This document shows positions 3,155 through 38,887 of a DNA stretch of 40,530 nucleotides, piece by piece; the stretch's first letter is position 1, and each line of letters begins with the position of its first letter. The translations under genes were made by a program, and so were the position numbers. The stretch is from a virus. The notes beneath the pieces are model-generated. The model did no database searches and had not been told where the DNA came from. It saw nothing but the letters and a program-made list of their open reading frames with translations. The stretch covers positions 1-40,530 of IMG/VR virus record IMGVR_UViG_3300021960_000182, one strand, 5' to 3'.

Positions 3155-3192
3155 GGCAGTTGCTCCTATGTTGTGGGTCATTTGCACTCTTT

Positions 3193-3221
3193 CCCTAGTC
3201 TACTTTGTAGGTAGGTGTCAA
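3193..3221 (-). promoter_or_regulatory. Candidate leftward early promoter
   Basis: On the minus strand a perfect TTGACA (-35, 3221-3216) is followed after 17 bases by CTAGGG, a poor -10. The position, just ahead of the whole leftward operon, makes it the best candidate. TACTTTGT (3201-3208) and TTCCCTA (3191-3197) also occur, in the same order, at the right-hand early promoter (40107-40128), which suggests a shared regulator. Seen: the motifs. Inferred: promoter activity. Confidence 0.35.
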
Positions 3222-3463
3222 ACAAAAAATGTTTCGTAAAAGTGTGGGTCATGGTGGCGGAAAAAATGACCCACGACGTGACCCACAACATGACCACGCT
3301 TAAACTGGCGGGAAAAATAACTGACAGCAGTGTAAACATGATCGGCGTTGTGGGTCATGTTGTGGGTATCTGTGGGTCATGTTTTTGGGGGTGGATGACC
3401 CACGCTGAAACCGGCGGCCAGCGCGGCTTAGAGCGGTGTGTGGGTCTTGTGGGTCATCTGTTT

Positions 3464-3487
3464 ATAGTATCCTAGGTCTGATACTAT
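3464..3487. promoter_or_regulatory. Perfect 8-bp inverted repeat, candidate operator
   Basis: ATAGTATC (3464-3471) and GATACTAT (3480-3487) are perfect complements separated by eight bases (CTAGGTCT). It sits in the middle of the octamer array, where the array is interrupted by about 85 bases. AT-rich arms and no T-run argue for protein binding rather than termination. Confidence 0.4.
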
Positions 3488-3803
3488 CTAGTTAAGAATG
3501 GTTCGCAATAAGACTGTATTTTATAGATGGGTACGAAATTGATGACCCACATTGCCCACAGCCCCTCTCGCCACCGGTCCCACGCATTTTGCCCGCGCGT
3601 CTTGTGGGTCATGTGGGTCATCGAAAACAAAGTCGAAAACCGATTGCTTAATTGATGACCCACATTGCCCACAAGTCCACGCGATCGGGCGGCGCTGATG
3701 GCGTTGTGTTTTCCAGCCGCGCGTCGATGTGTTTTTGCGTGACCCACAATGCCCACGCAGCAAAAGGCCATTTCTATGTTGCAGTGCAGCATTTTTTGCG
3801 TCA

Positions 3804-3834
3804 GGGGGTGGGCTGGGGGTGGGGGGGTAGAGGG
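3804..3834 (+). other. G-quadruplex motif in the control region
   Basis: On the plus strand runs of 5, 3, 5 and 7 G (3804-3827) are separated by loops of 1, 2 and 1 bases, and another GGG lies at 3832-3834. Short loops and long runs make this a very strong intramolecular G-quadruplex candidate. It lies between the octamer array and the AT-rich tract. Such motifs near origins or packaging sites can affect polymerase passage or protein binding; no role is shown here. Confidence 0.7.
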
Positions 3835-3873
3835 CCGTGAGGCGCGTGACTGTGACTGGCACCCATCGCAGAC

Positions 3874-3923
3874 AATTTTTTGTAAAAATTTTTCTGAAAA
3901 TTTTTTATTGCAAATTATTTTTG
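3874..3923. other. AT-rich tract, candidate unwinding element
   Basis: Fifty bases with six G or C by count (12 percent), in a window that is mostly well above 50 percent GC. Long A and T runs alternate. It directly follows the octamer array and G-quadruplex motif and precedes the candidate late promoter. It could be a duplex-unwinding element of an origin, an UP-element-like promoter region, or both. Confidence 0.6.
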
Positions 3924-4064: not shown

Positions 4065-4568
4065 ATGACTTTCTACTCCCTGCCGTTCACGCCGGAGCGC
4101 GTCGAAGCGACCGAGGCGCGTCTGGAAGCAATTTACGAAGCCGCACGCTGCGGTCTCAAGGGCGACAGTCTGGCGCTGGCCGCCGGATTGACCCCCGCGC
4201 AGTATCGCAAGCTGCACGAGTTCGACCCGCTGGTGGAAATCGCCGAGATGAAGGGGCGTGCCGACGGCGAGATCACCGCCGCGCGGACGCTGTACAACGC
4301 CGCCGCCGCTGGCGACGCCAAAGCCGCGCTCGACATCCTCAAGCATCAGCACGGCTGGGTAGCCAAGCAACAGATTGATGTTAATGTCGACCAGCAGATC
4401 AGCGTCATCACCGCGCTGGAGCGCGCGCAGTCGCGCGTCATCGAAGGCACCTACCGGGACGTACCCCAACTGACACAGGACAACCACAGCAATGCAGCAG
4501 CCGATCTACAGCGCGCAGGACGAGATGGAGTTGATGACGCGGCTATGGACGCCCGCGATCAAGGATGA
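4065..4568 (+). CDS. terS: Terminase small subunit
   Basis: A 167-residue protein directly before the terminase large subunit; P22 gp3 is 162 residues. It begins MTFYSLPFTPERVEATEARL, followed by a helix-turn-helix-like region (residues about 28-62: GDSLALAAGLTPAQYRKLHE) expected to bind the packaging site, then a helical oligomerisation region and a polar tail. The family forms rings that recognise phage DNA and hand it to the large subunit. The ATG at 4065 was chosen although no good ribosome site is visible; an earlier in-frame start would extend into the terminator. The last 77 bases overlap the next gene. Confidence 0.8.
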   Translation: MTFYSLPFTPERVEATEARLEAIYEAARCGLKGDSLALAAGLTPAQYRKLHEFDPLVEIAEMKGRADGEITAARTLYNAAAAGDAKAALDILKHQHGWVAKQQIDVNVDQQISVITALERAQSRVIEGTYRDVPQLTQDNHSNAAADLQRAGRDGVDDAAMDARDQG

Positions 4569-6018
4569 CCCGCTTGCGTTCGTCTTGCTGCTGTTTCCTT
4601 GGCAGGAAAAAGGCACGCCGCTCGAACATTTCGCCGGGCCACGCCGGTGGCAGCGCGACATCCTCACCGACATCCGTGACCACATCAAGGCAAATAGCGG
4701 CCGTCTGGATTATGACACACTGCGCGAAGCGGTGGCGTCTGGACGCGGTATCGGCAAGTCCGCCCTAGTCAGTTGGCTGGTGATCTGGATGCTGTCGACG
4801 CGCATCGGCTCGACAACCATCGTGTCGGCGAACAGTGAGGCGCAGCTACGCTCGGTGACATGGGCGGAGATTACCAAGTGGCTGGCAATGGCGCTCAATA
4901 GCCACTGGTTCGAGGTAGCCGCGACGCGCATCATGCCGGCCAAGTGGCTGACGGAGATCGTCGAGCGCGACCTGAAGAAAGGCACGCGCTACTGGTCGGT
5001 CGAAGGGCGGCTGTGGTCCGAAGAAAACCCCGACGCCTACGCGGGCGTGCACAACTTCGATGGTGTGATGCTGGTGTTCGACGAAGCCAGCGGTATTCCC
5101 GACAGCATCTGGTCGGTCGCGGATGGTTTCTTCACGGAGAATACACCCAACCGCTTCCATCTGGCCTTCTCCAACCCGCGACGCAACACAGGGTATTTCT
5201 ACGAGACGTTCCACTCCAAGCGTGCGTTCTGGCGCACGCGCAATATCGACGCGCGCGAGGTCGAGGGGACCGACAAGAACCTGTACCAGCGCATCATCGA
5301 CGAGTACGGCGCGGACAGCTACCAAGCCAATGTCGAGGTCTACGGCCAGTTCCCGTCGGAAGGCGACGATCAGTTCATCCCGGTCAATCTGGTCGACGAC
5401 GCGATGGCGCGGCCGCGCTACAAGGACGAGACAGCCCCCATCGCTATCGGCGTCGACCCGGCGCGCTTTGGGTCGGACGCGACCGTCATCGCCGTGCGGC
5501 AGGGCCGCGACATCATCGACATCAAGCGCCTGCGTGGGGCTGACACGATGGAAGTGGTCGGGCACGTCATCGACGCCATAGAGGAATACAAGCCCGCGCT
5601 GACCGTCATCGACGAGGGCGGGCTGGGCGCAGGCATCGTCGACAGGCTCAAGGAACAGCGCTACAAGATCAGGGGCGTCAACTTCGGGAACAAGGCGCAG
5701 AAGCAACTCATGTACGGCAACAAGCGTGCGGAGATGTGGGGAGCCATGCGCGAGTGGCTCAAGACAGCCAGCATACCCAACGACCGCTTTCTAAAGACTG
5801 ACCTGATCGGGCCGCGCGTCAAGCCGGACAGCAAGGGGACGATTTTCCTAGAGAGCAAGAAGGACATGAAAGCGCGCGGGCTGGCCTCGCCAGACGCCGC
5901 TGACGCCATAGCGGTGACGTTCGCGTACCCGCTCGGAAAACGCGAAGCGCGCGTTGACAAGCAACGCCCCAGAGGTTACTCTCCGCACGGAATTTCTACA
6001 TCTTGGATGGGTTCTTGA
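4492..6018 (+). CDS. terL: Terminase large subunit (ATPase and nuclease)
   Basis: A 508-residue packaging motor (P22 gp2 is 499). ATPase domain: Walker A GRGIGKS at residues 84-90 and Walker B VMLVFDEA with D197-E198. Nuclease domain: D322 in GVDPARFGSDATV, D374-E375 in VIDEGGLGAG, and D468/D471 in SPDAADAIAV. It docks on the portal, drives DNA into the head with ATP and cuts the concatemer. The start at 4492 overlaps terS by 77 bases; ATG 4525 is an alternative. Its TGA directly abuts the next ATG at 6019. Confidence 0.97.
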   Translation: MQQPIYSAQDEMELMTRLWTPAIKDDPLAFVLLLFPWQEKGTPLEHFAGPRRWQRDILTDIRDHIKANSGRLDYDTLREAVASGRGIGKSALVSWLVIWMLSTRIGSTTIVSANSEAQLRSVTWAEITKWLAMALNSHWFEVAATRIMPAKWLTEIVERDLKKGTRYWSVEGRLWSEENPDAYAGVHNFDGVMLVFDEASGIPDSIWSVADGFFTENTPNRFHLAFSNPRRNTGYFYETFHSKRAFWRTRNIDAREVEGTDKNLYQRIIDEYGADSYQANVEVYGQFPSEGDDQFIPVNLVDDAMARPRYKDETAPIAIGVDPARFGSDATVIAVRQGRDIIDIKRLRGADTMEVVGHVIDAIEEYKPALTVIDEGGLGAGIVDRLKEQRYKIRGVNFGNKAQKQLMYGNKRAEMWGAMREWLKTASIPNDRFLKTDLIGPRVKPDSKGTIFLESKKDMKARGLASPDAADAIAVTFAYPLGKREARVDKQRPRGYSPHGISTSWMGS

Positions 6019-6285
6019 ATGGCCGGTAAGAAAAAATCCGTATCGCTGGCTGTTGGACGCGGTGAAAAGCTGCCGGCTTCCAAGGGTGCGGGTCTGACTG
6101 CCAAGGGCCGGGCCAAGTACAACCGCGAAACAGGGTCGAACCTGAAGGCACCAGCGCCAAATCCGAAAACAAAGGCCGATCAGGGCCGCAAAAAGTCGTT
6201 CTGCGCCCGCATGGGCGCCGTTGCTGCCAAGGCAAAAGATGGCGAACGCGCTAAAGCCAGCCTAAGAAGGTGGAAATGCCCATGA
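6019..6285 (+). CDS. Small basic protein between terminase and portal (88 aa)
   Basis: Lysine-rich and glycine-rich (MAGKKKSVSLAVGRGEKLPA; end KASLRRWKCP). I recognise the pattern, including KSFCARM and a C-terminal RRWKC, as a small family recurring beside terminase in P22-like podoviruses, function unknown. The strong positive charge suggests nucleic acid binding. It starts on the base after the terL stop and overlaps the next gene (ATGA). Confidence 0.8.
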   Translation: MAGKKKSVSLAVGRGEKLPASKGAGLTAKGRAKYNRETGSNLKAPAPNPKTKADQGRKKSFCARMGAVAAKAKDGERAKASLRRWKCP

Positions 6286-30488: not shown

Positions 30489-30557
30489 CAGGGGCGCGAA
30501 AGCCGGGCGGTGCAACGCATCCGCCGCCCGGCGAGTAGCGGATGAGTGAGGCATCCG

Positions 30558-31490
30558 ATGGATTATGATTTTGTGGATTTCGGCGACTGCCGAGCAATCA
30601 TGCGCGATTGGGCGCATGAGGGTATCAAGGCGCAGACGTGCGTCACCAGCCCCCCGTATTTCGGTTTGCGCGACTACGGCGTAGACGGCCAGATCGGTCT
30701 TGAGCAAACACCCGAAGAATATGTCGCCGCAATGGTAGAAGTGTTCCAGTGCGTGCGTGATGTGCTGGCTGATGACGGCACGCTATGGTTAAACATAGGC
30801 GATAGTTATGCTGGCGCTGGTTACAGCAACCACAAAGGTACAGGCGGCACTCAGCGCACGGACGGCGGCAAACAGCGCCATCTATCCGGCACGGGCCGCA
30901 AAAATAAAGATTTGATCGGCATTCCGTGGATGCTGGCGTTCGCACTGCGCGCCGATGGATGGTATCTGCGGCAGGACATCATCTGGCACAAGCCGAACCC
31001 CATGCCAGAGAGCGTGCGCGACCGCTGCACTAAGGCGCACGAATACATCTTTCTGCTGTCCAAGTCTGACCGTTATTTCTTCGACAGCGAGGCAATGCGC
31101 GAGCCGTGTAGCAAGGATACGCAGCGCCGCGCCGCCAAAGGGCACACGCGCGGTGCAGGAGGGAAGATTGACGCATCGCGGCAGGACGCCGACACGCTAC
31201 GCGGGGGGCACGCCAAGGTCATCGACGTGAGCCGTGGCCGCAACCGCCGCAGCGTGTGGTCTGTGCCAGTTCGCCCATACAAGGGCGCGCACTTTGCTAC
31301 ATTCCCGCCCGCGCTGATTGAGCCGTGCGTCCTCGCTGGAAGCAGGGCGGGCGATGTTGTGCTTGACCCTTTTATGGGGAGCGGGACTACGGCGGGCGTA
31401 GCACGGAAGCTAGGCCGCAAATACATCGGTTGCGAACTGAACGAAGCCTATGGGGACTTGCAAGATGAGCGCATCCGTTCTCTGGCTTGA
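30558..31490 (+). CDS. DNA methyltransferase (N4-cytosine or N6-adenine type)
   Basis: A 310-residue beta-class methyltransferase: catalytic motif TSPPYFGLRDYG comes first (S31-P-P-Y34) and the AdoMet motif last (D270-P-F-M-G-S-G-T-T). SPPY favours N4-cytosine, though N6-adenine is possible. The middle holds the likely target-recognition region (RYFFDSEAMREPC and a basic stretch near 200-225). No partner restriction gene is present, so it is probably an orphan enzyme protecting phage DNA. AGTGAGG lies before ATG 30558. Overlaps the polymerase gene by 26 bases. Confidence 0.92.
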   Translation: MDYDFVDFGDCRAIMRDWAHEGIKAQTCVTSPPYFGLRDYGVDGQIGLEQTPEEYVAAMVEVFQCVRDVLADDGTLWLNIGDSYAGAGYSNHKGTGGTQRTDGGKQRHLSGTGRKNKDLIGIPWMLAFALRADGWYLRQDIIWHKPNPMPESVRDRCTKAHEYIFLLSKSDRYFFDSEAMREPCSKDTQRRAAKGHTRGAGGKIDASRQDADTLRGGHAKVIDVSRGRNRRSVWSVPVRPYKGAHFATFPPALIEPCVLAGSRAGDVVLDPFMGSGTTAGVARKLGRKYIGCELNEAYGDLQDERIRSLA

Positions 31491-33438
31491 TTTCGAGACG
31501 CGGTCGCGTTGCGACCTGAAGGCGTGCGGCGTTTACAATTACGCGCAGGACATCAGCACCGAAGTGCTGTGCATGTCCTACGCCTTCGACGACGAGGACG
31601 TGCGGACGTGGCTGCCAGACCAGCCTTTCCCGCAAGCCATCGCCAACCATCGCGGCCAGATACGCGCGCACAACGCAGCGTTCGAGCGCTTGATCTTCTG
31701 GTACGTCCTACAGATCGATTTTGACCTAGAACAATTCTACTGCACCGCAGCACAAGCCCGCGCCAACTGCGCGCCGGGCAGCCTTGAAGACGTCGGACGG
31801 TTTGCCGGTGCCAGCATGAAGAAAGACCATCGCGGCAGCCAGCTTATCCGGCTGTTGTCGATACCGCAGTCTGATGGTAGCTTTCGCGAAGACGCCGACC
31901 TGATGGCGGAAATGATCGCCTATTGCGAACAGGACGTTCGCGCTATGCGGGCTATCAGCAAGGCGCAGCGGGAGTTGTCCGATGACGAGTTGCGCGATTA
32001 TCACGTTAACGAGCGTATTAACGACCGTGGTGTCCTGCTCGATAAACCTTTGGCTTTGGCGGCGGTACGTTACGCAGAAGCAGAAGCTGACGACATACAG
32101 GCAGTCGTTTGTGAAGTTACTCAAGGTGCAGTTACGTCAGTCCGCAGCCCGCGTATGCGGGAGTGGGTTCTCTCGCGTGTCGGCGAAGAAGCGTTAAAGC
32201 TGGCGACTGTCTACAAGGATGGCGAAAAGAAACTGTCCATCGACAAGAACGTGCGCACGAACCTTTTGATATTGGCAGAGGAGAACCCCGATGAAGTGCC
32301 GTCCGAAGTTGCCGAAGTCATCCAGTGCGCGGACGATCTGTGGGCATCGTCCGTGGCGAAGTTCAGTCGTGCGGCGTCGCTGGCAGACGCAGAGGATAAT
32401 CGTGTTAGAGGAGCGTTTGTCTTTTCAGGAGGAAGCGCTACTGGCCGCGCTTCGTCTTATGGGCTTCAAGTTCATAACTTTCCGCGAAAGTGCGCAGATC
32501 AGCCTGCACTGATACGCGACGCTATGGTGCGCGGGCACCAGATCGTACCGAAATACGGCCGGCGCGTCACCGACGTGCTGAAGTCGATGCTGCGCCCGGC
32601 GCTGATGGCCGCCAAGGATAAGCACCTGATCGTTGCCGACTGGGCAGCTATCGAGGCGCGGGTGACGCCGTGGGCGTCGAACAGCAACAGCGGTGCGGCC
32701 AAGCTGGCGATATTCGAGCGCGGCGAGGACGTGTACAAGCACAACGCCGCCGCGACGTTCGCAGTTAGCTATGGTGACGTCGACAAGGACCAGCGCCAGA
32801 TCGGCAAGGTGCAGGAGTTGGCGTGCGGCTTTGCTGGCGGCGTCGGTGCCTTCGCGGCGATGGGCCGTATCTACAACATCCTGCTGCCGGAATATGAGGC
32901 GCGGCGCATGGTCGACGCATGGCGCAGGGCTAACCTGTGGTCGGTGCCCTACTGGTCGAAGCTGGAACAAGCCTACATGGCGGCCATGCGCAACCGTGGG
33001 CAGGAGTTCAACGCCGGGCGGGTCACATATTTATTCGATGGCCAGCATCTTTGGTATGCCCTGCCGAGCGGTCGTGTGCTATGCTATCCGTTCGCCCGTT
33101 TCGATGAGGAAGGCAACATCACCTATGCTAAGGCGTCTTGGAAGCCTGCTGCGGATGCAAAGGAATGGCCGCGCGCGCGGCTATGGAAAGGGCTGGCCTG
33201 CGAGAACATCACGCAGGCTATCGCCAACGACCTGCTGCGCCATTCGCTGCGACGGTTGGACGAGGAAGGGTTGGATTGCGTGCTGCATGTCCATGACGAA
33301 ATCGTGCTGGAAGTCGCCGACGCTGACGTGGAGACGGCGCAGGCGTCGCTACTGCGCGTGATGACACAAGGGCCAGCATGGGCGCGCGGTCTGCCTCTCG
33401 ACGCCGAGGTGGCCGTGATGCAAAGATATGGGAAGTAA
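31465..33438 (+). CDS. Family A DNA polymerase with 3'-5' exonuclease
   Basis: A 657-residue replicative polymerase. Exonuclease: D9-F-E11 (Exo I), H69-N70-x2-F73-E74 (Exo II-like), Y153-C-E-Q-D157 (Exo III). Polymerase: motif A ADWAAIEAR with D392 and E397; motif B RQIGKVQELACGFAGG (R444, K448, L452, F456); motif C HVHDEIVLEV with H610, D611, E612. By alignment to E. coli Pol I, L452 occupies position 762 and F456 position 766 (normally Tyr). ATG 31465 follows GGGGA at seven bases. It overlaps the methyltransferase end and shares its Exo III DNA with the early gene at 422-694. Confidence 0.95.
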   Translation: MSASVLWLDFETRSRCDLKACGVYNYAQDISTEVLCMSYAFDDEDVRTWLPDQPFPQAIANHRGQIRAHNAAFERLIFWYVLQIDFDLEQFYCTAAQARANCAPGSLEDVGRFAGASMKKDHRGSQLIRLLSIPQSDGSFREDADLMAEMIAYCEQDVRAMRAISKAQRELSDDELRDYHVNERINDRGVLLDKPLALAAVRYAEAEADDIQAVVCEVTQGAVTSVRSPRMREWVLSRVGEEALKLATVYKDGEKKLSIDKNVRTNLLILAEENPDEVPSEVAEVIQCADDLWASSVAKFSRAASLADAEDNRVRGAFVFSGGSATGRASSYGLQVHNFPRKCADQPALIRDAMVRGHQIVPKYGRRVTDVLKSMLRPALMAAKDKHLIVADWAAIEARVTPWASNSNSGAAKLAIFERGEDVYKHNAAATFAVSYGDVDKDQRQIGKVQELACGFAGGVGAFAAMGRIYNILLPEYEARRMVDAWRRANLWSVPYWSKLEQAYMAAMRNRGQEFNAGRVTYLFDGQHLWYALPSGRVLCYPFARFDEEGNITYAKASWKPAADAKEWPRARLWKGLACENITQAIANDLLRHSLRRLDEEGLDCVLHVHDEIVLEVADADVETAQASLLRVMTQGPAWARGLPLDAEVAVMQRYGK

Positions 33439-33451
33439 ACAGGAGCCAAAA

Positions 33452-35800
33452 ATGAGTGAGGAACGCGAAGAATTTATCAAGTTTGTAACAGGGCTGGCCT
33501 TCACCGAAGGCGAGACTGCGTTGCTGCTGCGCCAGAAGCCGGTGCTGAAGGACGGCGAGATCGTCTATCATGGCGACGGCGTGCCTAAGGCGACATTCCC
33601 CGCCTTCCTGCCTGACAAGGCCAAGATCAAGGAAGGCGAGGCGTGGTATGTCAACACAGGCTCGTTCATCGTCGACCGCTTCGAGAACGGCAAGCCTAGC
33701 GCTAAGTCGGCTAACACTGAATATGTGCTGTTCATGATGCTGGACGACGTCGGCACCAAGTCGAAGGTGCCGCCGATTGAGCCGACATGGATTATGGAAA
33801 CCAGCGAAGGTTCGTTCCAGTGGGGCTTCGCCTTTAGCGAACAGCCGACCAAGCAGGAGTTCACCGCCGCCATTCGCGCGATTGCGGATGCTGGCTATAC
33901 CGACCCCGGCGCGACAAACGCCGTGCGCAACTGCCGCATACCGGGCAGCGTCAACCTGAAGCAGGGGCGCAACAACTTCCCCGCGCGGCTGGTCGAGTTT
34001 CACCCCAAGCGCGAATACACGCTGGACGAGATTTGCGCGGCGTTAGGCGTCACGCCAGCCGAGGCCGATACGGCCGACTATAAAGTGATCAACATCCGCG
34101 ACACCGGCGGCGACACAGTCCTGAAGTGGCTTGCCGACAAGGGGTTGGTCCTGTCACAGGTCAATCATGATGGCTGGTGTGCTATCGTCTGCCCTAACCA
34201 TGCCGAGCATACGGACGGCAACATCGAGGCGCGCTACAAGCCGCTTGATCGTTCGTTCTGCTGCTATCACGGCCATTGCCAGCATCTCGACAGCCGGACG
34301 TTCTTAAGCTGGGTTGGCGAGAACGGCGGCCCCATAGTCATGCCGGGGCTACGCGATGAACTGATCGTCGAGCATATGCGCCAGATGGCCGACAAAATAC
34401 AGCCGACCGAGAAATACCCTGACGAGGCCGCCGCGCGCGTCAAGGAAGTCGAGCGCAAGGAAGCCGGACGGCTGGAAAAGGCCGAATGGTTCGAGCGCTT
34501 CGCCTACATCCAGTCGGATGACAGCTATTTTGACATGGTGACGCGCCGCGAAGTGCCGCGCAACGTCTTTAACGCGCTATTCCGTCACGTCGACTGCCGG
34601 TCAATTCACAAGGCCAAGCAGCGGGTGCAGGCGTCGATCTATTTTGACGAGCGCCGGCAGGAATATGGCGCGACGGCATTGGTCGGCGTCACCTATGCGC
34701 CGGGCGAGGATGTGCTGGTTGCACGCGACGGGCTGGTCTACGGCAATACATGGATTAATCACCGGCCGGACGTGGCGCAGAGCGACACAATGGCCGACAG
34801 CGACATCAAGCCGTGGTTGGACCATTGCCGCCTGCTGGTGCCAGAAGAAGCCGAATTAGAGCATGTGCTAGACGTCATGGCGTTCAAGGTGCAGGCGCCC
34901 AACGTCAAGATCAATCATGCTGTGCTGCATGGCGGCGCTGAAGGCTGCGGTAAGGACAGCATGTGGGCACCGTTCCTGTGGGCGATTGGCGGCGACCATC
35001 AGCACAACCGCTCGATCATCGAAAACAAGGCGCTGGAAAGCCAATGGGGCTACGGCCTGCAAGCTGAAGTCGTCATCTTGAACGAGTTGAAGGAACCAGA
35101 GGCACGCGAACGCCGCGCGCTGGCCAACCGGCTGAAGCCGGTGATCGCAGCACCGCCTGAAACGCTCACCATTAACCGCAAGGGGCTGCATCCATACGAA
35201 ATGCTCAACCGTCTGCTGGTGGTGGCGTTCACGAACGATCTGGTGCCTATCTCTATCCCGTCGCAGGACCGGCGCTGGTGCTGCATCTGGTCCGATGCAC
35301 CGCGCATGGACCCCAAAGACGCCGACAAGCTGTGGCGCTGGTATAAGAAGGGCGGCTTTCAGAAAATCGCTGCGTGGCTGTGGCAGCGCGACGTGTCGGC
35401 GTTCAATCCGTCTGCTGCGCCGCCCATGACGGACTGGAAGCTAAACATGGTTGAGCAGGGGATGAGCGTCACCGAAAGCCACATCGTCGACATGATCAAG
35501 CGTCGGTCCGGTCCGTTCTCCAAAGGTATTATTGCTGGTCCGTTCCACCGTGTCTGCGATGCTGTGGCGCTGATGATGAACGTGCCGCCGTCGAAGGTGC
35601 CTCAAGCGGTGCTGCTGCACGCGCTCACAGAAGCGGAATGGGTTAACGTCGGGCGAATGCACAGTCGCGAGTTTCCAACCAAAAAACAGATTTATGCCGA
35701 CCGTGCAGTGTTCGAGAAACACAACAAGAGCGAACTGCGCCGGATGGTAGAGGAAGACGGGGTTGCAATTGCTGGCGAAAAGGTGGTAAGTATACGCTGA
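33452..35800 (+). CDS. Primase-helicase (RepB-like primase plus DUF5906-type helicase)
   Basis: A 782-residue two-domain protein. The N-terminal part has an archaeo-eukaryotic/RepB-type primase core (FMMLDDVGTKSK near residue 90; WGFAFSEQPTKQEF; NCRIPGSVNLK). A CHC-like segment (CPNHAEHTDGN, CCYHGHCQHLD) lies near residues 245-280. The C-terminal part is an SF3-like helicase with Walker A HGGAEGCGKDSMW near residue 495, VVILNELKEP as motif B region and an arginine-rich DRRWC. It would unwind DNA and prime synthesis for the family A polymerase. AGGAG lies before ATG 33452. Last gene of the operon, followed by a terminator. Confidence 0.9.
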   Translation: MSEEREEFIKFVTGLAFTEGETALLLRQKPVLKDGEIVYHGDGVPKATFPAFLPDKAKIKEGEAWYVNTGSFIVDRFENGKPSAKSANTEYVLFMMLDDVGTKSKVPPIEPTWIMETSEGSFQWGFAFSEQPTKQEFTAAIRAIADAGYTDPGATNAVRNCRIPGSVNLKQGRNNFPARLVEFHPKREYTLDEICAALGVTPAEADTADYKVINIRDTGGDTVLKWLADKGLVLSQVNHDGWCAIVCPNHAEHTDGNIEARYKPLDRSFCCYHGHCQHLDSRTFLSWVGENGGPIVMPGLRDELIVEHMRQMADKIQPTEKYPDEAAARVKEVERKEAGRLEKAEWFERFAYIQSDDSYFDMVTRREVPRNVFNALFRHVDCRSIHKAKQRVQASIYFDERRQEYGATALVGVTYAPGEDVLVARDGLVYGNTWINHRPDVAQSDTMADSDIKPWLDHCRLLVPEEAELEHVLDVMAFKVQAPNVKINHAVLHGGAEGCGKDSMWAPFLWAIGGDHQHNRSIIENKALESQWGYGLQAEVVILNELKEPEARERRALANRLKPVIAAPPETLTINRKGLHPYEMLNRLLVVAFTNDLVPISIPSQDRRWCCIWSDAPRMDPKDADKLWRWYKKGGFQKIAAWLWQRDVSAFNPSAAPPMTDWKLNMVEQGMSVTESHIVDMIKRRSGPFSKGIIAGPFHRVCDAVALMMNVPPSKVPQAVLLHALTEAEWVNVGRMHSREFPTKKQIYADRAVFEKHNKSELRRMVEEDGVAIAGEKVVSIR

Positions 35801-38351: not shown

Positions 38352-38673
38352 TACCTTGCTCCTGCTTATATTCACCGTTCTCGATAGCGTCGGCAATAGA
38401 CCTGTGCATGAAGCACGCTTGGCAGGAGCAGTCGCCATCTACGTTGTCGCGTAGCCAAGCCACAATCTGGCTCTCTACCTCAGCCTTTATCGCATCCTCC
38501 TCCTTTGGTAGGAACACCGCCTCACGGGGGACGTAATATGTCGTGCCTGAAATCCACGCCCAGTTTGACTGGCGGACAAAGTTCTTACCGTCTAGGCTAG
38601 TAGGCATATCAGGCGTCCAGTAGGGCGGCTTGCGCCCATGCGCCTTCGGGTTGTATTCGACATATTCAGACAT
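38332..38673 (-). CDS. Early protein of unknown function (113 aa)
   Basis: A 113-residue protein from ATG 38673 (GAGGAGCAA upstream). The first half is aromatic and polar (MSEYVEYNPKAHGRKPPYWT, WISGTTYYVPREAVFLP); the second has CSCQACFMHRSIADAIENGE, a possible zinc cluster with few cysteines. Its tail, QEQGNDKHTR, extends the QEQGND that ends the 74-residue gene on the left arm, so the two genes share a recombined 3' end. Confidence 0.7.
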   Translation of the reverse strand: MSEYVEYNPKAHGRKPPYWTPDMPTSLDGKNFVRQSNWAWISGTTYYVPREAVFLPKEEDAIKAEVESQIVAWLRDNVDGDCSCQACFMHRSIADAIENGEYKQEQGNDKHTR

Positions 38674-38887
38674 TGATTTGCTCCTCAACCATCAGCCCTC
38701 GTGCTTCACACGCACGGCGTAGGTGCACAGGCGACACGCCCCACAACCGCACGGCATCACCGTAGCGGCGGCACAACACGCGCAGGGCTTCCTCACTTAC
38801 TTTCAACTCCTGTCGGCGGCGCTCATGTTCGCGCAGGGCTTCGGCAGCCTCGCGTAGTATTGCTATCTCGTCGGTTACATCTGGCAT
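38666..38887 (-). CDS. Small conserved early protein (73 aa), paralogue of 127-351
   Basis: MPDVTDEIAILREAAEALRE onward, with the same C-terminal block (LCRRYGDAVRLWGVSP, HLRRAC) as the 74-residue protein at 127-351; about 50 of 62 aligned residues agree. DNA is clearly diverged, so it is an allele or an old duplicate, not part of the exact repeat. It overlaps the next gene by eight bases and its upstream neighbour by 13. Function unknown, DNA binding possible. Confidence 0.75.
   Translation of the reverse strand: MPDVTDEIAILREAAEALREHERRRQELKVSEEALRVLCRRYGDAVRLWGVSPVHLRRACEARGLMVEEQINV

Follow-up and report, generated by a model that had tools for sequence, protein, structure and literature searches.

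What does a dense array of short repeats do when it fills the border between the early and the late genes of a phage, and which protein would read it? The question is raised by a window of 40,530 nucleotides of viral DNA (positions 1-40,530 of the IMG/VR record IMGVR_UViG_3300021960_000182), in which most of the space between the leftward early genes and the small terminase gene (terS) is taken up by such an array; the genes of the large terminase (terL), the portal and the major head protein lie downstream. An original prediction, made from the letters of this DNA, had seen in it either a replication origin or a packaging site.

The array and its surroundings

That 13 octamer copies could not have accumulated by chance was confirmed by exact counting and by two shuffle controls. 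Seven copies of GTGGGTCA and six of TGACCCAC lie within positions 3173-3747 (Table 1) and there are none in the rest of the window; dinucleotide shuffles of the whole window gave a mean of 0.97 and a maximum of 4 octamers, while local mononucleotide shuffles (n = 2000) never gave more than 1. The three predicted composites with fixed spacing were also found: TGACCCACAnTGCCCAC, at 3543, 3656 and 3740, consists of the half-sites TGTGGGCAA and TGTGGGTCA spaced 9 bp apart. Further pairs with this spacing are present at 3439/3448 and 3603/3612, and in several of the head-to-tail copies 9 bp apart the degenerate partner is TGTGGGCAA or TGTGGGTCT. The sequence TGTGGGTCA(T) is a better unit than the octamer. 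Described in such units, the array consists of two sets separated by an AT-rich gap. The last two units of the left set form a 9-bp tandem oriented toward this gap, so that the order is ++ at 3439/3448, the gap, and - at 3543. The gap is a candidate melting site, and counts for more than the AT tract situated closer to terS.

Table 1. Coordinates of the array, of neighbouring features and of the proposed initiator gene (positions in the window)
Feature	Position	Strand	Remarks
GTGGGTCA, exact copies	3173, 3244, 3350, 3372, 3449, 3604, 3613	+	exact word count
TGACCCAC, exact copies	3267, 3279, 3396, 3543, 3656, 3740	-	exact word count
Left iteron set	3172-3456	both	TGTGGGTCA units 3172+, 3243+, 3267-, 3279-, 3349+, 3361+ (degenerate), 3371+, 3396-, 3439+/3448+
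AT-rich gap between converging iteron sets	3457-3542		86 bp, ~33% GC; lowest 40-bp window 28% GC
Right iteron set	3543-3757	both	9-bp tandem composites 3543-3560 (-), 3603-3620 (+), 3656-3673 (-), 3740-3757 (-)
G-rich run with G4 potential	~3804-3834	+	probably outside the origin core
AT tract	3874-3923		12% GC; between array and terS
Small terminase (terS)	4065-4568	+	position before terL and conserved co-occurrence
Large terminase (terL)	4492-6018	+	phrog_2, E 8e-44; flank marker
Primase-helicase, proposed initiator	33428-35800	+	790 aa; RepB/AEP-like N-terminus, SF3-type helicase, C-terminal winged helix (predicted)
Predicted winged helix	35543-35698	+	residues 706-757: helix 706-717, helix 726-735, strand 739-744, wing, strand 753-757
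Wing residues 745-752 (HSREFPTK)	35660-35683	+	745 and 747 covary with array word

The G-quadruplex motif and the AT tract named in the original prediction are both present, but the former is no conserved component of the locus and was rejected as such, the scanned upstream region of 37 of the 47 compared phages containing no G4 motif. An AT minimum is found approximately 480-610 bp upstream of terL in some relatives too. No Rfam element was found, and the terS product gave no Pfam or PHROG match. GC skew was set aside as origin evidence, because it tracks the direction of transcription.

The ends of the window are repeated (positions 1-~127 equal 38218-~38344, with divergence afterwards), an indication that the map is circular and that the assembly contains a variant branch; homologous small genes are located at 127-351 and 38666-38887. 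The window also contains a tandem duplication of CGGATCCGGTCGATCGGTTAGCCGT (~2103-2155), immediately upstream of the gene at 2073 (-), and an N6/N4 DNA methyltransferase gene (30546-31490, PF01555). A host-assignment search returned one fragment, in an uncultured bacterium bin.

Arrays in related phages

The relatives compared were 80 IMG/VR contigs returned by a TerL search, and the de novo word search was useful only for those with enough upstream sequence. In most of the latter, the same intergenic place holds an array composed of another word, namely TTTGGGTCAT, TCTGGGTCAT, TGTG[AG]GTCAT, TGTGGACAAT, CGGACGTCAT or TTTAGGCnAT. The search of related genomes advised in the original prediction thus showed that this phage is not alone in having an array: close relatives have one at the same place, composed of a different word, and the absence from relatives that was named there as a refutation was not observed. 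Its general layout is that of 9-bp head-to-tail iterons in two converging sets, with an AT-rich gap of ~90-110 bp between them. Across 47 arrays, neighbours on the same strand are mostly 9 bp (99 cases) or 10 bp (34 cases) apart; the converging orientation (left set +, right set -, both facing the gap) is seen in only 33 of the 47, and the median gap is 98 bp. The 40 bp of lowest GC content in the upstream region fall inside the array in 27 of the 47, versus 10.7 expected. Outside the arrays, each searched sequence has 0 or 1 exact copy of its word.

Two complete circular relatives carry an array beside terS. In MW202483 (L203) the word is GTTTACGTAAAC and the primase-helicase has a different loop, MCFAPEL. 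In phage DSL-LC05 (OR003940, L204) the word is CCAGTGGGTCAG (array at 33448-33970), the terminase is related and the primase-polymerase is different; judging from these sequences, initiator and array appear to have been exchanged together. MW202483 also contains, at 2145-2591 and 5924-6220, a homing endonuclease beside a small terminase-like gene, close to the array, and a gene whose annotation is dnaA helix-turn-helix.

Repeats of other kinds were encountered as well. Three other viral contigs (L328, L336, L351) have 32-54 near-copies of TCTGGGTCA in the locus, where no primase of this family was found. Dense GCCGTAGCCGT repeats, separate from the terS array, lie downstream of the primase in L128 and L162 (~+1040 and ~+2146 from the primase end, respectively).

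The primase-helicase and its predicted wing

The proposed initiator gives a weak N-terminal match to RepB_primase (AEP), slightly below the Pfam cut-off; its helicase part corresponds to DUF5906 and matches the NrS-1 helicase in a PDB sequence search (6k9c, E 3.3e-10). Two AlphaFold models concur in placing a winged helix at residues 706-757 and the covarying residues in its wing or loop (745-752), the packing of the domains in the full-length model being uncertain (pTM 0.38). The matches obtained in a fold search were largely winged-helix regulators, all of them weak (best E 0.018), and no meaningful match was obtained when only the C-terminal domain was searched by sequence against the PDB. 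In relatives, the array adjoins terS a few kb downstream of the primase-helicase gene; in the window the distance is ~5.6 kb if the map is circular, as inferred.

Covariation of wing and word

Changes of the array word go along with a few residues that lie in the wing predicted for the primase-helicase (HSRE at 745-748 in the window). HSR(E) goes with GTGGGTCA, KSRE with GTGGACAA and sometimes GTGGGTCA, KSRA with GTG[AG]GTCA, ASGD with TTGGGTCA, HSVE with CTGGGTCA, NSK with GGACGTCA or GTTGTCA, and GS with TAGGC. A column-by-column association scan, which ignores ancestry, ranked primase columns highest among comparable core families, with 745 and 747 in the top three; four early, head and beta-clamp-like families had too few genomes for a score, and several of the small early genes were likewise too thinly represented. 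Further high-scoring columns lie in the C-terminus and elsewhere in the same primase-helicase.

The association was then examined in a held-out set of 80 contigs fetched by primase alignment, from which already-used contigs and duplicates had been dropped, leaving 17 loci in which a known word occurred at least 4 times. For 16 of these 17 the best word was the one expected from the wing, whereas shuffled assignments (20,000 shuffles) gave a mean of 5.0 and a maximum of 12. An unsupervised scan yielded new wings with new words, e.g. KSSE with GGGGTCATT and DSGE with TTTCGGCAGT. For the reverse test, IMG/VR was scanned for tandem words by DNA alone, no protein being used to find the loci, and the result could be read where the C-terminus of the primase shared a contig with the tandem word. 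Loci with tandem TGTGGGTC or TGTGGGTCnTGTGGGTCA had R747 in 41 of 42 distinct readable primases (Q in the remaining one), compared with 7 of 67 in the set examined earlier. Tandem GGACGTCA led to NSK in 8 of 8 cases, and tandem CTGGGTCA to the wings HST, HSV and AST. The covariation was thus observed in both directions.

On a tree of 50 primase-helicase proteins, built with the C-terminal part left out, the word classes require 22 changes. Simple counts are inflated by shared ancestry, and the numbers of independent pairs are too small for significance alone: approximately 4 same and 0 opposite for R747 against GTG (median p 0.125), and 5 same, 0 opposite and 1 without difference for G745 against AGGC (median p 0.0625). 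The closest comparison is that of the window (HSREF with GTGGGTCA) and its nearest relative, L122 (ASGEF with TTTGGGT), which are 85% identical over the tree columns.

The code is incomplete, because KSRE wings occur with TGTGGACAAT as well as with GTGGGTCA, and because a subgroup of seven relatives with L[GA]S[AS]DF wings (L005, L009, L138, L139, L144, L145, L157) had no clear array in the scans made. In this subgroup the word may be overly degenerate, or the origin may be located elsewhere. L061 and L071 have identical C-termini and slightly different best words; other residues or drift must therefore matter.

Proposed mechanism

The origin part of the original prediction is supported by the conserved layout and by the covariation with the C-terminal domain of the primase-helicase. 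We estimate the probability that the array is an iteron replication origin read by this phage protein at roughly 0.88. The C-terminal winged helix would bind every TGTGGGTCA(T) unit, in double-stranded form, as an iteron. Two helicase rings would be loaded by the tandem units, which are spaced by 9 bp and belong to two sets directed toward the 86-bp gap; the rings would melt the gap so that bidirectional replication could start; the N-terminal primase would then provide primers for extension by the phage family A polymerase. In the loop, positions 745 (H in the window) and 747 (R) would help to set the word that is read, with R747 probably matched to the first G of GTG.

Alternative explanations

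The prediction had linked the array to pac or cos recognition by the adjacent small terminase, and in the window as well as in relatives it does lie directly upstream of terS and terL. This part of the prediction was not supported. TerS is a poor candidate for the reader, because phages with arrays of TTTGGGTCA, TGTGGACAA, TGTGGGTCA or TGTG[AG]GTCA have the same 75 residues at its N-terminus, and it was rejected in this role; TerS columns are also less associated with the motif than primase columns. We consider a packaging site very improbable. It is slightly less improbable, though still unlikely, that the repeats are operators of a transcription regulator serving the divergent early (-) and late (+) operons, the link with the primase-helicase being coincidental or autoregulatory. 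Multiple sites on both strands between these operons would suit such a function, but the word follows the wing in both test directions, the converging sets around an AT-rich gap are better suited to an origin, and no dedicated repressor was identified, the small early genes being only partly covered. The array may nevertheless have a secondary regulatory role.

The least credible explanation is that the repeats are bound by a host factor, for example DnaA. It is prompted by one class of relatives, whose word TGTGGACAA equals TTGTCCACA, a sequence that we take to resemble a DnaA box; the remaining word classes are not DnaA boxes, and phages with close TerL differ in their word, which follows the loop of a phage protein. 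The word TGTGGACAA forms the arrays of L049, L052, L053, L061, L066 and L079, and arrays of this class could attract host DnaA as well. Hardly more credible is a cluster of single-stranded recognition sites for the AEP primase domain, comparable with the GTG or TTTGGTTA sites of the NrS-1 and pRN1 enzymes. The templates recognised by NrS-1 PrimPol are GTG(G) and TTTGGTTA (PMC8718748), the sequence of the helicase domain matches that of NrS-1, and the word of the window includes GTGG. However, GTG is missing from such words as CGGACGTCAT, TTTAGGCnAT and TCTGGGTCAT, the residues associated with the word belong to the C-terminal wing and not to the helix-bundle domain, and the layout converges on two strands.

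Comparison with known systems

By analogy, the array most likely works like the origins of phage P4 and of SaPI/PICI elements. In PICI origins two iteron sets flank an AT-rich region (PMC6092414), as the short iterons do here, and the C-terminus of the SaPI Rep helicase binds iterons, apparently as two hexamers (PMC7581432), a mode of reading suggested here by covariation. In contrast to the SaPI origin, situated immediately downstream of rep, the array lies beside terS, ~5.6 kb from the initiator gene; moreover, its bearer is not a satellite but a tailed phage that encodes a terminase, a portal and a major head protein of its own, and between close relatives the 9-bp-spaced words change together with a few residues of the wing. 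The alpha protein of P4 is likewise a primase-helicase fusion with a C-terminal winged helix, which binds origin repeats according to the statements in PMC4234260 that cite Yeo 2002 and Ziegelin & Lanka 1995. In our protein the winged helix is predicted from models, and the primase match is to RepB_primase (AEP), whereas that of P4 is of the Toprim type; PDB searches gave no sequence match to the P4 domain.

In the PLE of Vibrio cholerae, RepA and ori covary between variants and origin swaps show cognate specificity (PMC8263062), which parallels the covariation of DNA-binding domain and origin in our phages. PLE differs in that its RepA_N initiator has no predicted helicase or primase, and in that whole modules are exchanged rather than a few loop residues. 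NrS-1 has a recognisably related helicase region (6k9c), but what is known of its specificity concerns priming sites on single strands, for which the helix-bundle domain is the reader (PMC8718748).

Conclusions

Phage origins are rarely known, even in abundant uncultured groups, and no description of the present ones was found in the literature searched, the coverage of which was partial. Here a probable origin could be read from sequence alone, with wing residues predicting the word and the word predicting the residue in independent scans. We lean towards the view that origin specificity across a large group of aquatic podophage-like viruses is set by a very small recognition code, namely wing positions 745 and 747, in a primase-helicase that is otherwise conserved. 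Such a code would create many origin types, which may not cross-activate and for which coinfection, satellites or nucleases directed at origins perhaps select. The phages provide a large natural collection of matched protein-DNA pairs, in which it can be followed how a winged helix changes its specificity. They also give a way to ask why phages keep switching the address of their origin, each virus probably having its own lock and key.
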